This document shows positions 39,951 to 48,042 of a stretch of DNA of 49,449 bases, piece by piece. A model generated the notes under the pieces. That model had not been told where the DNA came from, did not search any database, and was given only the letters and a program-made list of their open reading frames with translations. Origin of the DNA: a virus; the IMG/VR virus record IMGVR_UViG_3300043331_000530, positions 1 to 49,449 of that record; one strand, given 5' to 3'. A program made the translations under genes and the position numbers. How positions within the stretch are numbered: the stretch's first letter is position 1; every line of letters begins with the position of its first letter.

Positions 39951-40135
39951 GATGGGAACATCCTCCTCATAGCTTCCAGGTCGTCCGCCTCGCTCCTGGT
40001 GGTGAAGGTCATGGTCTCAATGGAGTCCCTTAGGCGGAGGCTCAATGAGAGTTCGGACTTGATCCGCTCCACGGCGTCAGCACCATTCTCCGCTTGAAGA
40101 ATGCCATCAATCTCTAGATGGTACCTCACTTGCAT
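39947..40135 (-). CDS. Hypothetical small protein of the recombination operon
   Basis: 62 residues from an ATG 9 bases after AGGAG. Sequence VRYHLEIDGILQAENGADAV, then ERIKSELSLSLRLRDSIETM: a strand-helix-strand pattern. Overlaps both neighbours (Cas4-like and Sak4-like genes). Role unknown. Confidence 0.6.
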   Translation of the reverse strand: MQVRYHLEIDGILQAENGADAVERIKSELSLSLRLRDSIETMTFTTRSEADDLEAMRRMFPS

Positions 40136-41045
40136 TGGGCATCTCCTCTCTGTCCTTGTTCTTGGTACGGAAGTCGAACCTCCTTTCGACGGTATTATCA
40201 CGGAGCCATTTCAGGCGGAAGCCAGCCTCGCGGGGGGAGGTGCATACGTCCCGGTAGCGGCACTTGTAGGGCAGGGCACAACGGGACTTGTTCTGCTTCC
40301 ACACTAGCTCGGTGTAGGGATCATCCGCAAACTTCTTCCGAATCTCGACGTGGAGCAGTCTCTCAGTCTCCGCCCACTCAATGATCTGGTCCTTCCCGTA
40401 GGGAACGGGGAAGCGGTGCACCTTGATCTTGGACTTGTTGATAATGATCCGTTCTACGATGGCGCCCCAACAGTGGTGCCCCGTCAGGTGGGTAGCAAGC
40501 CAGACATAGCCTTCCATCTGGTGGTTGGGCTTGTACTCCGTGACGGGGTCACCAGTGTCTTGGACGGTGGTCTTGAAGTCGAGGGGGCCAATCATCTGGT
40601 TCCACCGGACTATCTCGTCTAACCTACCACCATAAGTGAGGTGGCAGCCGGTGGGGGAATAGGGACAGGGACCATTGCAGACGACCACGGCTGGCTGTTC
40701 CTCCCGGAGGACCTCAATGGGATCCTCACGGCGGAACTTCACCCATTCGATGAAGGCCTCCTGCATTCGGAGCTTGGTCCTACCGTACTTATCCTCAATG
40801 TCGTCTGGGAGGTTCAGGTCAATGATCTGGATTATCTCATTGAGATCCCCTCGTGCGGACCAGGCTTCGGTGAGCTTGTGGAAAACGCCGCCCCACATGA
40901 GGGAAAAATCAACGACGTGGCCAGCCCGCCCCCAGATGCCCTGATAGAGGGCCATTCTCTCGCACTCTAGGTAGGTGCCGGAGAAGGAATGGTCGAACAC
41001 TTCGGGAAGTTTTGCATTTATGCCGTAGAGTGTAGGATCACTCAT
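40107..41045 (-). CDS. Cas4/RecB-like PD-(D/E)XK nuclease
   Basis: 312 residues. H56, D143 in GGRLDEIV, D156 and K158 in LDFKTT, and QxxxY (Q176, Y180) are the RecB-family catalytic set. Four Cys (C28, C256, C262, C268) match a Cas4/AddB-type 4Fe-4S cluster. Likely makes single-stranded ends for recombination with the Sak4-like ATPase and SSB-like protein. No CRISPR array is nearby, so the Cas4 label refers to fold only. Confidence 0.85.
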   Translation of the reverse strand: MSDPTLYGINAKLPEVFDHSFSGTYLECERMALYQGIWGRAGHVVDFSLMWGGVFHKLTEAWSARGDLNEIIQIIDLNLPDDIEDKYGRTKLRMQEAFIEWVKFRREDPIEVLREEQPAVVVCNGPCPYSPTGCHLTYGGRLDEIVRWNQMIGPLDFKTTVQDTGDPVTEYKPNHQMEGYVWLATHLTGHHCWGAIVERIIINKSKIKVHRFPVPYGKDQIIEWAETERLLHVEIRKKFADDPYTELVWKQNKSRCALPYKCRYRDVCTSPREAGFRLKWLRDNTVERRFDFRTKNKDREEMPNASEVPSRD

Positions 41046-42741: not shown

Positions 42742-42787
42742 TTTTTCTCTCGAGGTTTGCAGTTAGCACTCTAGCCTATGTGATACA

Positions 42788-42816
42788 AAGATAGTCACGG
42801 ACTCTCATTCTGTCAA
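42788..42816 (-). promoter_or_regulatory. Sigma-70 promoter for the replication operon
   Basis: On minus: TTGACA (42816-42811), 17-bp spacer, TATCTT (42793-42788). TTTGTATCACA overlaps the -10 and reads into the start region, as at 47888-47898. The -35 overlaps the stop codon of the gene upstream. Confidence 0.8.
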
Positions 42817-43242: not shown

Positions 43243-43685
43243 TCGCCCTCCTGGGCTGGCGTCGGTGGATGCGCGGCAGTTCGATCCACTGCGTATGCCG
43301 CCCGTAGCATCTCGCGGGTCCGTTCCACTCCCGGCGAGTATCCGGGTCCGTAGCGAGTGAAGTTCTCGCCCGCCTGTATCGCCGCCTCGCTCGGTCCTCC
43401 CGGGAGCGCCACGGAACGGAGAGCGGCCCCGCATTCGGTCAAGATCGCCAGCCCTACGTACTCGTCCGTCGCTTCGGGTGGCGGTGCCCAATCGCCCATG
43501 AGGTGCGCGAATCGGCCCACTGCATCCCGCGCTTCGCGCCCGATCTTCCGACAGAGCGCAAAATCAATCGGTGCTGCTGCGCCCCCTGCGGGAGCCGGAC
43601 CGTATACCGCATCGCGCACCATCTCCTCGGTAGGCGGCGGGCCCGGCGGCCACCGTGTCGGCCCGGAGGCGGAAGCGTCAGCCAC
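43239..43685 (-). CDS. GC-rich hypothetical protein
   Basis: 148 residues from a GTG with GGAG upstream. Pro/Gly/Ala-rich start, then IDFALCRKIGREARDAVGRF. High GC and CGN/GCG codons contrast with the rest of the genome, as for its three neighbours upstream. Overlaps them by short junctions. Unknown function. Confidence 0.6.
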   Translation of the reverse strand: MADASASGPTRWPPGPPPTEEMVRDAVYGPAPAGGAAAPIDFALCRKIGREARDAVGRFAHLMGDWAPPPEATDEYVGLAILTECGAALRSVALPGGPSEAAIQAGENFTRYGPGYSPGVERTREMLRAAYAVDRTAAHPPTPAQEGE

Positions 43686-44073
43686 GGCAAGGCTCCAAAT
43701 CTTGAATCTCTGCACCGTAGCCGTGGCGCACTCGCACCGTGCCCTTATCCCAGTCCAGCCACATGGTCGTTTTCCAGGGATAGGCGATGCCAGACACTCC
43801 CGCAGACTCCTCGATCTGTTGTAGCTCCCAGCCGGGGCCATAGTCCACGTCGAGAATCGTCCAGATTCCTACCTTGCCCTGAAGCCAAGCGACCATCGCA
43901 GCGCGGAACTTGTTCAGCTTGTCGGTGCTCGGGGGCGCGGGTGCAGCCAACATAGCCAAGGTCATTGCGATCCCGCCCTCGCGGCTCTTGTCCCCATTGT
44001 CGTACTTCTGCCTCCCGCCCAGCGTCTTGTACCACCAGTCGGCAGCGACCTCAATCATCGGCTCGCTATTCAC
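43678..44073 (-). CDS. GC-rich hypothetical protein
   Basis: 131 residues from a GTG overlapping the upstream stop (GTGA). Segments EPMIEVAADWWYKTLGGRQK and IWTILDVDYGPGWELQQIEE. No Cys motif. Part of the compositionally distinct four-gene block. Function unknown. Confidence 0.6.
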   Translation of the reverse strand: MNSEPMIEVAADWWYKTLGGRQKYDNGDKSREGGIAMTLAMLAAPAPPSTDKLNKFRAAMVAWLQGKVGIWTILDVDYGPGWELQQIEESAGVSGIAYPWKTTMWLDWDKGTVRVRHGYGAEIQDLEPCRG

Positions 44074-44444
44074 CTCGTCCTCCCTTTCTCCCGTTCCTCG
44101 GGGGAGCGCGCGTCGAGATACGCCTCAGCCTGTTCCAGTGTGAGTATGGCTATTTCGCCCTCCTGAACAAGCCACATTCCCTCAGTTCGACCTCTATGCT
44201 TGTACCACGACAACACGATGAAGGCACCGTCCCACGGCAGCAGGGCCGCGTACTGGTCCTCGCTCCACACGGCCCGCGAATCGTCCTCATCTTGCCGAAC
44301 AAGATCGCGGAGGGCGTTCGCTGTTAGGCAATTCCAGTTGTTGCTGGAGAACACACCGTCTCGGAAAGCACAGCCGGGATCGGAAGCGAAATAGTCTGGC
44401 CTCTTGCCACCATACCCCACAGCGCACCTGGAACACACGCTCAC
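44070..44444 (-). CDS. Conserved phage protein with Cys pair
   Basis: 124 residues from a GTG overlapping the preceding stop. CSRC..GYGGKRPDYFASDP and FSSNNWNCLTANALRDL, then IVLSWYKHRGRTEGMWL, are patterns I associate with a widespread uncharacterised phage family. CSRC may bind metal. Its neighbour 44441-44764 belongs to another widespread family often found nearby. Confidence 0.65.
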   Translation of the reverse strand: MSVCSRCAVGYGGKRPDYFASDPGCAFRDGVFSSNNWNCLTANALRDLVRQDEDDSRAVWSEDQYAALLPWDGAFIVLSWYKHRGRTEGMWLVQEGEIAILTLEQAEAYLDARSPEEREKGRTR

Positions 44445-44764
44445 GTCTCGCCCCCTTGCTGGCTCGGCCCTTCCGGGGAGGGCGAGCGCACTAGGTCGCA
44501 CGCACGTTCATGGCCGGCTAGCGCCTCAGCCTCAGTGGTATAACGCTCTTGGTACTCATCGTGCGCGCCGCCGAAGATCATCGTCTCAAAAATCAGCGGC
44601 GGGCCAGCGCCCCAATTGTGATTAATGCCAAGCCACACGGTAGAGATATGGACGTTACCGATCTCCGTTGCCGCCACTCGCTGATAGGTCTTGTCCTCGA
44701 ACAGCCGGGCCCATTCCATGAGGTCGTCTAGGGGGTTGCCCTGTCTGTCGTAGTAGTCAGCCAT
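44441..44764 (-). CDS. Conserved phage protein, YYDRQG family
   Basis: 107 residues from an ATG with AAGGAG upstream. YYDRQGNPLDDLMEW, VAATEIGNVHISTVWLGINH, PLIFETMIFGG and RYTTEAEALAGHERA match a very widespread phage family of unknown function. The 19-bp inverted repeat (44788-44888) sits directly upstream, ending 23 bases before this start. Confidence 0.7.
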   Translation of the reverse strand: MADYYDRQGNPLDDLMEWARLFEDKTYQRVAATEIGNVHISTVWLGINHNWGAGPPLIFETMIFGGAHDEYQERYTTEAEALAGHERACDLVRSPSPEGPSQQGGET

Positions 44765-44787
44765 TGTGATTCTCCTTACATGGGGGA

Positions 44788-44888
44788 GAGGGCTACTAGG
44801 GACAGGTGGCCTCGCTTCCATCCCCGTCATGGTAGGGACCCCGGTGCCTAAAGGAGAAGGCAGAGCGGGACCTGCCCTAGTAGCCCTC
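44788..44888 (-). ncRNA. Candidate structured RNA leader
   Basis: On the minus strand, GAGGGCTACTAGGGCAGGT (44888-44870) pairs with the mirror arm at 44807-44788: a 19-bp stem with a single bulged base. The 62-nt interior can form a CGCU/AGCG helix and two hairpins (GCCU..AGGC and UCCC..GGGA), a multibranch shape. It lies between two genes, just before AAGGAG of the 44441-44764 gene. No T-run follows, so it is not a simple terminator. Confidence 0.5.
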
Positions 44889-44891
44889 AAG

Positions 44892-45032
44892 TTATAGGCC
44901 CAACCTATCCAGTATGCCCATCACGACGAGTGCAAGGAGGCATAGGAGGACCATGATGGTAAGGCAACCAGTAGGGTCCAGTCCAAGATCGGAGTCTCGA
45001 TCAAAGGAGGACCAGCTGAATGGTTCCTTCAT
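44892..45032 (-). CDS. Small single-pass membrane protein
   Basis: 46 residues; ATG overlaps the acidic gene's stop (ATGA). After a polar start, CLTIMVLLCLLALVVMGIL (about 23-41) is a membrane segment with a short C-tail. It ends just before the inverted repeat of the candidate RNA. Role unknown. Confidence 0.6.
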   Translation of the reverse strand: MKEPFSWSSFDRDSDLGLDPTGCLTIMVLLCLLALVVMGILDRLGL

Positions 45033-45265
45033 TCGTACTCCTCCTCTTCCTCATCGAGGTCCTCAAACTCATCCTCATCCTCGAAGTCCTCGTCCTCGTC
45101 GTAGGCTTCCTCCTCGTCCTCATCCTCCCCGAATACGGGGTCCTCATCCCCCTCTGGCTTCCTATCATCCCGGCGCTCATTTGAACGGCGCTCTGGTCCA
45201 GGCGTCTGATCCTGTAGGAAGGCAGGCTCCAGGGGGTAGGGCTGGAAGTTGATGCCTCCGATCAT
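45029..45265 (-). CDS. Highly acidic small protein (possible DNA mimic)
   Basis: 78 residues from an ATG overlapping the preceding stop. The N-terminal 40 residues are mixed, and the C-terminal 35 are almost all Asp/Glu with a few aromatic residues. Such charge resembles DNA-mimic anti-restriction proteins or acidic tails that bind basic proteins. No fold can be assigned. Lies in the early cluster, where anti-defence genes are common. Confidence 0.65.
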   Translation of the reverse strand: MIGGINFQPYPLEPAFLQDQTPGPERRSNERRDDRKPEGDEDPVFGEDEDEEEAYDEDEDFEDEDEFEDLDEEEEEYE

Positions 45266-45429
45266 CGTGGTGCCTCCTCGAGCCATGCTTTTGGAAGGTT
45301 GAAAAGTCCAGGGATACTCATGTCATGGCAGGTGTGGCACAGCACTGGCACGCCGTGAGTCCCATCGAAGGGAATGCCACAGCGGGCACAGGCTGCGCCG
45401 GTTGCCTTGGGATCTAATTGGTCACTCAT
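45262..45429 (-). CDS. Zinc-ribbon-like small protein
   Basis: 55 residues. CARCG (near 14-18) and CHTCH (near 31-35) make a four-ligand zinc site, followed by GLFNLPKAWL. Starts inside the preceding gene (8-base overlap) and ends in an ATGA junction. Function unknown. Confidence 0.65.
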   Translation of the reverse strand: MSDQLDPKATGAACARCGIPFDGTHGVPVLCHTCHDMSIPGLFNLPKAWLEEAPR

Positions 45430-46763: not shown

Positions 46764-47014
46764 GTGAAATCCAGGGAAACAACAACGCCCTTGTGTAGCT
46801 CGGCGGAGTTGTCCTCCACCTTGCCTATGGTGTACTCCCAGTCCTCCGCGAAGATGGTAATGAGAGGCTTGTGCCGCTCCAATAGGAGGGCAAGGAGATG
46901 AAGCTCCTCCGCAAGTTGGGCGTCAGGCAGTGCAACGTCTGCATTGGTGGGAAGGATCACGGGGACCTCAATGTTCCTCCCATCCCGCGCGTGAATGGTG
47001 ATGCTTGTCATCAT
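46760..47014 (-). CDS. Hypothetical protein with internal palindrome
   Basis: 84 residues. TSITIHARDGRNIEVPVIL, AEELHLLALLLERH and ITIFAEDWEYTIG. The DNA for NADVALP is palindrome copy 8, in the same reading phase as the other coding copies. Overlaps neighbours. Unknown function. Confidence 0.6.
   Translation of the reverse strand: MMTSITIHARDGRNIEVPVILPTNADVALPDAQLAEELHLLALLLERHKPLITIFAEDWEYTIGKVEDNSAELHKGVVVSLDFT
46928..46947. repeat. Dispersed palindrome, copy 8 (degenerate)
   Basis: Core TGCAACGTCTGCA: the right arm has one change (CTGCA). Coding for NADVALP in the 46760-47014 gene. Confidence 0.65.
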
Positions 47015-47493
47015 GGGTGGACTCCGTTTCTCCGGGAAATGCCATGCTCAACGCACCAGAAGTTGCGTTGGTGCATTGACTTGGCGGTTAGGTGAGCCAG
47101 CTGACGGGCTCGTTCAAGGGCTGCCCACTCAGTGGGGAACTCTCCGAGGTCCCCTTTGAAATGATCCCCCTCTATGCAGAAGGTCACGTCGTACTTGGAG
47201 GTAACGAAGTCATCCTCAAGGGGGAGAGGCTTCCTTGGTGGGAGAGGTGCCTTCTCAGGGGGCAACTTGAAGATGGCTTCAAGCTGAAGGGCTTTCAGTT
47301 TCTTCGACCATCCACCGGACCAGACGGAGGCGGCGCGAGAGAAGGCGCATTCGGCGCAGAGGAAGACCATCTCATCTCGCGTGGCTTTCTTCCCGTCAAC
47401 GGTGGTTGCGAAGGTGGCTGTGAACGCTCCGAATGCTGGGATGGGACAGAGCGCACAGCGTGGCCGTTTTTCAGTGTAAGCGGTGAGAGCCAT
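47011..47493 (-). CDS. Zinc-ribbon-containing hypothetical protein
   Basis: 160 residues. N-terminal CALCPIPAFGAFTATF and later FLCAEC form a likely zinc ribbon (about residues 13-49). The C-terminal half is alpha/beta with DDFVTSKYDVTFCIEGDHFK. Overlaps both neighbours. Function unknown. Confidence 0.65.
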   Translation of the reverse strand: MALTAYTEKRPRCALCPIPAFGAFTATFATTVDGKKATRDEMVFLCAECAFSRAASVWSGGWSKKLKALQLEAIFKLPPEKAPLPPRKPLPLEDDFVTSKYDVTFCIEGDHFKGDLGEFPTEWAALERARQLAHLTAKSMHQRNFWCVEHGISRRNGVHP

Positions 47494-47702
47494 CAGAAAG
47501 GTCCCCCCTTCTCCTGTGCCTCACGCAGCAGGCGGCGAAGCAGGGACCTACTGATGGGAGGAAGAGGGTGCTTGGGGCGCCGCTTCCTCTGTTTGAACAC
47601 CCGTCCACAGGCCATGCACTTGCGGCGGAAGTAGAAGGGGTTGTCACCGTATGGGACCAGCCGCTGCCCGCAGTGTGAGCCTATCATCAGTTGTTCCCTC
47701 AC
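47493..47702 (-). CDS. Small zinc-ribbon-like basic protein
   Basis: 69 residues from a GTG overlapping the preceding stop; ATG at 47687 has a better-spaced AGGGA and would give 64. HCGQRL and KCMACGRVF supply Cys pairs, and the tail is Arg/Lys/Pro-rich. Probably a nucleic-acid-binding peptide. Confidence 0.6.
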   Translation of the reverse strand: MREQLMIGSHCGQRLVPYGDNPFYFRRKCMACGRVFKQRKRRPKHPLPPISRSLLRRLLREAQEKGGPF

Positions 47703-47833: not shown

Positions 47834-47896
47834 TGTGGGATCTCCTATGCGAGGTGGAGAGTGTCGCGCAACTAGCGCGTAGTCCATTGTGATACA

Positions 47897-47925
47897 AATA
47901 TAACGAAGCCGCGTCAAAAAGTCAA
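47897..47925 (-). promoter_or_regulatory. Sigma-70 early promoter
   Basis: On minus: TTGACT (47925-47920), 17-bp spacer, TATATT (47902-47897), followed by TTTGTATCACA that is shared with the 42788 promoter. Drives the genes from 47833 down. Confidence 0.82.
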
Positions 47926-47956
47926 GGGGTCGCCTCACAGATTCGTAAGGCGACCC
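47912..47956 (-). terminator. Rho-independent terminator of the 48043-48429 gene
   Basis: On minus, GGGTCGCCT (47956-47948) and AGGCGACCC (47935-47927) form a 9-bp perfect stem, followed by CTTGACTTTTTG. The T-rich part is the -35 region of the next promoter, so the terminator and promoter overlap. Confidence 0.7.
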
Positions 47957-48042
47957 GCTTGAGGGAGGGGCTACTCACGGCCGGCGCTCGACACAGCCTC
48001 GCTAAGGGTCCGACTACCCCAGCACCGTGAGCAGCGTTGCGG

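Follow-up and report, generated by a model that had tools for sequence, protein, structure and literature searches.

The window analysed here, a 49,449-nt stretch of viral DNA, carries at 44788-44888 a confirmed inverted-repeat structure whose stem is far beyond chance. Most likely it is a phage mRNA control element of a known type. We tentatively read it as an intercistronic mRNA hairpin that acts in cis and resembles the RNase III sites of phage T7; it may separate the gene of a YYDRQG-family protein from a coupled operon.

Structure of the element

The element has the architecture that the earlier note described (Table 1), and the interpretation given there is supported in part. The claimed 19-bp stem with one bulge consists of 14 bp that are 100% complementary, the bulge at 44802 and 5 further bp, and the claimed 62-nt interior (44808-44869) is exactly that long, with two hairpins that both fold on the minus strand. 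The claimed distance of 23 bases between the end of the element and the start of the YYDRQG gene is likewise correct, with the ATG at 44764. The earlier note gave no strand; the sense strand of the element is the minus strand, as for the gene downstream, and transcription would run leftward.

Table 1. Positions of the element, its parts and neighbouring features in the window.
Feature	Position	Strand	Remark or basis
Stem-loop RNA element, intercistronic, 101 nt	44788..44888	-	inverted-repeat search, folding, shuffles
Outer closing stem, 5' arm, 14 bp perfect	44875..44888	-	
Outer closing stem, 3' arm	44788..44801	-	
5-bp stem above the single bulge, 5' arm	44870..44874	-	bulge = 44802; folding
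5-bp stem above the bulge, 3' arm	44803..44807	-	folding
Inner hairpin 1, 5 bp, 8-nt loop UCUCCUUU	44845..44862	-	pairs 44845-44849/44858-44862
Inner hairpin 2, 6 bp, 8-nt loop	44820..44839	-	pairs 44820-44825/44834-44839
UUCUCCUU, exact complement of the Shine-Dalgarno sequence at 44770..44777	44851..44858	-	mostly unpaired in the predicted ensemble
Shine-Dalgarno sequence AAGGAGAA of the YYDRQG gene	44770..44777	-	sequence
YYDRQG-family gene, 107 aa, first gene downstream of the element	44441..44764	-	
46-aa gene, likely membrane segment (by eye)	44892..45032	-	stop codon 3 nt before the element
Sigma-70-like promoter match TTGACT-17-TATATT, then TGTATCAC	47889..47925	-	likely source of the transcript
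Terminator-like hairpin, 13 bp, T-rich tail	47927..47956	-	overlaps or abuts the start of the promoter match 47889..47925

No other perfect inverted repeat in the window has arms of 13 nt or more and a loop no longer than 130 nt. A comparable 19-bp stem, allowing one bulge or mismatch, appeared in none of 300 block-shuffled windows, where the maximum was 15. The perfect 14-bp part alone was found in 3 of 200 shuffled windows (about 1.5%), and the argument therefore rests on the extended stem together with its location. Folding gives a minimum free energy (MFE) of -57.9 kcal/mol on the minus strand (z -5.08) and -56.2 kcal/mol on the plus strand (z -4.55); on neither strand did any of 200 shuffles reach the observed value. 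Further stable folds occur in the window at 47489, 47902, 40461 and 35176, so the stability of the element is not by itself unique.

The two strands fold with nearly the same stability, so the stem alone does not distinguish a role in RNA from a role in DNA. A feature acting as DNA, either a protein-binding palindrome or a cruciform for replication or packaging, would make use of perfect 14-bp arms that serve both strands equally, and transcription would be unnecessary. We consider this highly improbable: a dimer operator would be expected to have a shorter spacer than the 73 nt that part the arms, and a function in mRNA better explains why the element fits the only junction gap, directly ahead of the Shine-Dalgarno (SD) sequence.

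The view of the earlier note that this is not a simple terminator is borne out, as no U-tract or T run follows either end on either strand. An intrinsic terminator consists of a GC-rich hairpin with a short loop and then a U-tract, a pattern that the element lacks; the only match of a terminator scan to overlap it was weak, a partial stem of 6 bp within the element. No Rfam family reaches its gathering threshold in the window, in agreement with the earlier note, which recognised no RNA family in the element, and the Rfam comparison yielded only weak, microRNA-like chance matches.

Setting within the operon

Thirteen small minus-strand genes, running from 47833 down to 44892, overlap by 1 to 25 nt, mostly by 4 nt. 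The only gap among the junctions examined in this 14-gene run is one of 127 nt, directly before the YYDRQG gene, and the element fills 101 of these 127 nt. Genes were called from open reading frames and their positions, without a gene finder. An N-terminal extension of the YYDRQG gene through the element, from a TTG at 44890 in an open frame, was considered and rejected, since the start with a good SD is 44764 and homologues match from there.

The promoter-like site at 47889-47925 lies about 3 kb upstream of the element. It shares the motif TTGAC-N18-TAnnTTTGTATCAC with a second minus-strand promoter-like site, at 42780-42816, downstream of the element; by chance 0.02 occurrences of this motif would be expected, a figure that applies to a motif defined from one of its two sites. 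The TTTGTATCAC part conserved in both sites may be a phage-specific regulatory motif.

These positions do not support the label of a leader, which the earlier note had offered as one possibility: the element is inside a long operon, 3 nt past a stop codon, and the closest good promoter match upstream is a long way off. Most simply read, the layout of the sequence would place the element inside a polycistronic mRNA and not in a 5' leader.

The suggestion that the element marks the edge of a GC-rich block is rejected. The GC peak lies at 43250-43750, more than 1 kb away, and GC content around the element is ordinary. The block itself (GC 0.68 vs 0.56 for the window) contains an uncertain 200-aa open reading frame that overlaps the gene at 43678-44073, and may be a recent acquisition.

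Proposed roles in processing, insulation and ribosome entry

In the mechanism that we tentatively favour, a long leftward phage mRNA would start near 47.9 kb and transcription would pass through the element. The genes from 47833 to 44892 are linked by overlapping ends, and the hairpin would interrupt this chain immediately ahead of the YYDRQG gene. Its stem of 19 bp may act as an RNase III-type processing site, as a stabilising insulator, or as both, with cleavage being a presumed step. The outcome would be separate mRNA ends and an own translation start for the YYDRQG gene and the genes after it; with a stable stem in the lone gap of an otherwise coupled operon, this gene would be released from its coupling to upstream translation. 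The proposal starts from direct observations: the fold, its position in the single gap between the genes of the run, the lack of a terminator tail, and a promoter match further upstream.

An RNase III site takes a double-stranded stem of about two helical turns in a transcribed mRNA; the element offers 19 bp with one bulge, and the promoter match suggests that it is transcribed. The ideal RNase III substrate has about 20-22 bp, which makes the 19-bp stem slightly short. What weighs against a processing hairpin is that no homologue of the element, in which selection on the pairing could show, turned up in the collections searched.

Known systems provide partial parallels. The RNase III sites of T7 early mRNA (R1.1 and others) are imperfect intergenic hairpins of a long, polycistronic phage message (PMC4858673, PMC8708148). 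The element resembles them as a hairpin between genes of a long phage mRNA, the latter deduced here from sequence, but its stem encloses a 62-nt branched interior whereas the T7 sites have a simple loop. In the case of lambda N, an RNase III hairpin lies between the leader and the gene. This hairpin is part of a genuine 5' leader that carries a nut site; at the element, in contrast, no nut site was recognised. The N mRNA of phage lambda is under RNase III control (PMC8708148), as is proposed for the mRNA considered here.

The same hairpin may also, or instead, control ribosome entry. In the docking model, the loop of inner hairpin 1 (UUCUCCUU) would pair with AAGGAGAA, which sits 10 nt beyond the element, and the resulting pseudoknot would limit access of ribosomes to the YYDRQG gene. 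A complement to the SD of at least 8 nt, as seen here with an exact 8-nt match, arises in about 1% of dinucleotide shuffles, and one of at least 8 nt is present at 3 of the 291 SD-bearing starts in the window, the YYDRQG start included. The loop is predicted to be about 88% unpaired at most positions, as expected of an accessible loop, and the loop-SD duplex has a predicted energy of -9.1 kcal/mol, compared with a cost of 5.6 for opening. However, the complement was noticed after the fact, and pyrimidine-rich anti-SD matches are common. We regard such a pseudoknot as doubtful, though worth serious consideration.

A related form of this control would have the 3' arm pair with the SD while the 5' arm is covered by a ribosome that has reached the upstream stop codon. 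In predictions that mask the 5' arm, the SD core is open to 1-6%, compared with 54-77% otherwise. The alternative pairing of the 3' arm with the SD is nevertheless not beyond chance (0.04-0.25 in shuffles and 0.24 in a synonymous-codon control), and this variant accordingly stays hypothetical.

The preQ1-III riboswitch provides a precedent for docking of a loop on the Shine-Dalgarno sequence, through its loop-SD helix P5 (PMC11625349). As in preQ1-III expression platforms, a hairpin loop of the element complements an SD a short distance away. Unlike preQ1-III, the element has no Rfam riboswitch match, is intercistronic and contains no ligand core that we recognise.

Processing or insulation by the stem and gating of the SD by the loop are compatible. 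One scheme, which we consider very unlikely, would make the intercistronic RNA a phage operon switch of a new kind that senses whether the upstream small gene is translated. A ribosome at the stop codon of the 46-aa gene would open the long stem and so free its 3' arm, which would then compete with the anti-SD loop for the ribosome site of the YYDRQG gene.

If the element acts as an intercistronic processing or insulating hairpin, it would be a phage control point recognisable by genome layout alone, since an operon that is coupled throughout has a single gap and this gap is structured; such gaps could be screened across orphan phages. It would also hint that at least one phage regulates the dose of the widespread YYDRQG family separately.

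Homologues of the gene and relatives of the element

The YYDRQG family is widespread in phages, with at least 571 relatives confirmed among the candidates of one scan, and the 107-aa protein has no match in Pfam, PHROG or NCBIfam. Homologue loci numbered 59 and 80 in two sets (some shared), plus 2 in genomes. About 125 leaders of these homologues were folded and the element is absent from them; most homologues overlap or closely follow their upstream gene. The locus L080, which has one further neighbour gene in common with the window, follows this pattern, with a YYDRQG homologue that overlaps its upstream gene and no element.

Only one of the folded leaders, that of L029, has a comparable hairpin (z about -7 in one folding and about -5 in another). 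This hairpin (L029:2899-2997) has a stem of about 20 bp that ends about 20 nt before the ATG and is followed by a T-run; its sequence is unrelated to that of the element, and the ribosome site lies inside the extended stem. A second long leader hairpin that takes up the SD of a YYDRQG homologue is consistent with a gate on ribosome entry, but nearly all other homologous leaders are without such a hairpin. Taken on its own, the combination of hairpin, T-run and SD in the extended stem makes the L029 leader a possible attenuator. One further locus, listed both as L031 and as L186 (the same contig), gives a leader z of -3.3 in coding sequence that overlaps the upstream reading frame, and the remaining leaders are weaker.

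The earlier note had set against its proposal any homologues that lack the repeat while gene order stays. YYDRQG homologues without the repeat are indeed found, but gene order is not conserved in these homologues either.

For the element itself, a DNA similarity search of phage and plasmid collections found no match. The 14-mer arm occurs 27 times in viral contigs, in no case with a partner arm of at least 12 nt at the match, and the arm-gap-arm pattern was absent from viral and genome contigs. A covariance model that had this one sequence as its sole input was run against 173 sources and recovered no homologue, only the window element itself on both strands; its best outside match, in L217, is a weak simple hairpin that appears unrelated by eye.

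These results bear on two further explanations. A selfish or relic palindromic DNA insertion (MITE-like or REP-like), tolerated between genes, would suit an element that is isolated, nearly symmetrical (70% self-match on the opposite strand) and missing upstream of YYDRQG homologues in other phages. We hold it to be unlikely, as there is no second copy in the window, no copy with the same arms in the viral and genome collections, and no obvious target-site duplication in the sequence. MITE-like or REP-like repeats have multiple copies with common terminal inverted repeats, whereas the element is a single copy. An RNA of an undescribed class, either a riboswitch that senses a ligand or a processed small RNA, would agree with the multi-branched fold, the long closing stem and the missing Rfam match. 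This is quite unlikely in our view: no conserved core was found in any homologue, the location within an operon is unusual for a riboswitch, and the YYDRQG gene suggests no ligand. Neither the ligand sensing nor the small RNA that the earlier note had considered finds support here, and the homologous leaders share no conserved ligand-binding core.

Close relatives of the phage were sought by single-sequence searches with the DNA polymerase and the proteins encoded at 40107-41045 and 47011-47493, and none was found. In a profile search the DNA polymerase was at most 33% identical to anything retrieved. Judged from these sequence comparisons, the phage is an orphan.

Elsewhere in the window, 47890-48020 (-) also folds into a closing stem of 17-18 bp that includes G-U pairs and surrounds inner hairpins (z -5.1), and this fold resembles the 44788-44888 element in outline. 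A strong hairpin at 47484-47557 (-) (z -3.5) lies at the end of the gene 47493-47702; its 3' arm contains GGGGGG, which is SD-like, together with the ATG at which the next gene (47011-47493) starts, and it looks like a translational-coupling structure. The small gene at 45029-45286 (-) encodes a protein whose C-terminal half is highly acidic and rich in Asp and Glu.
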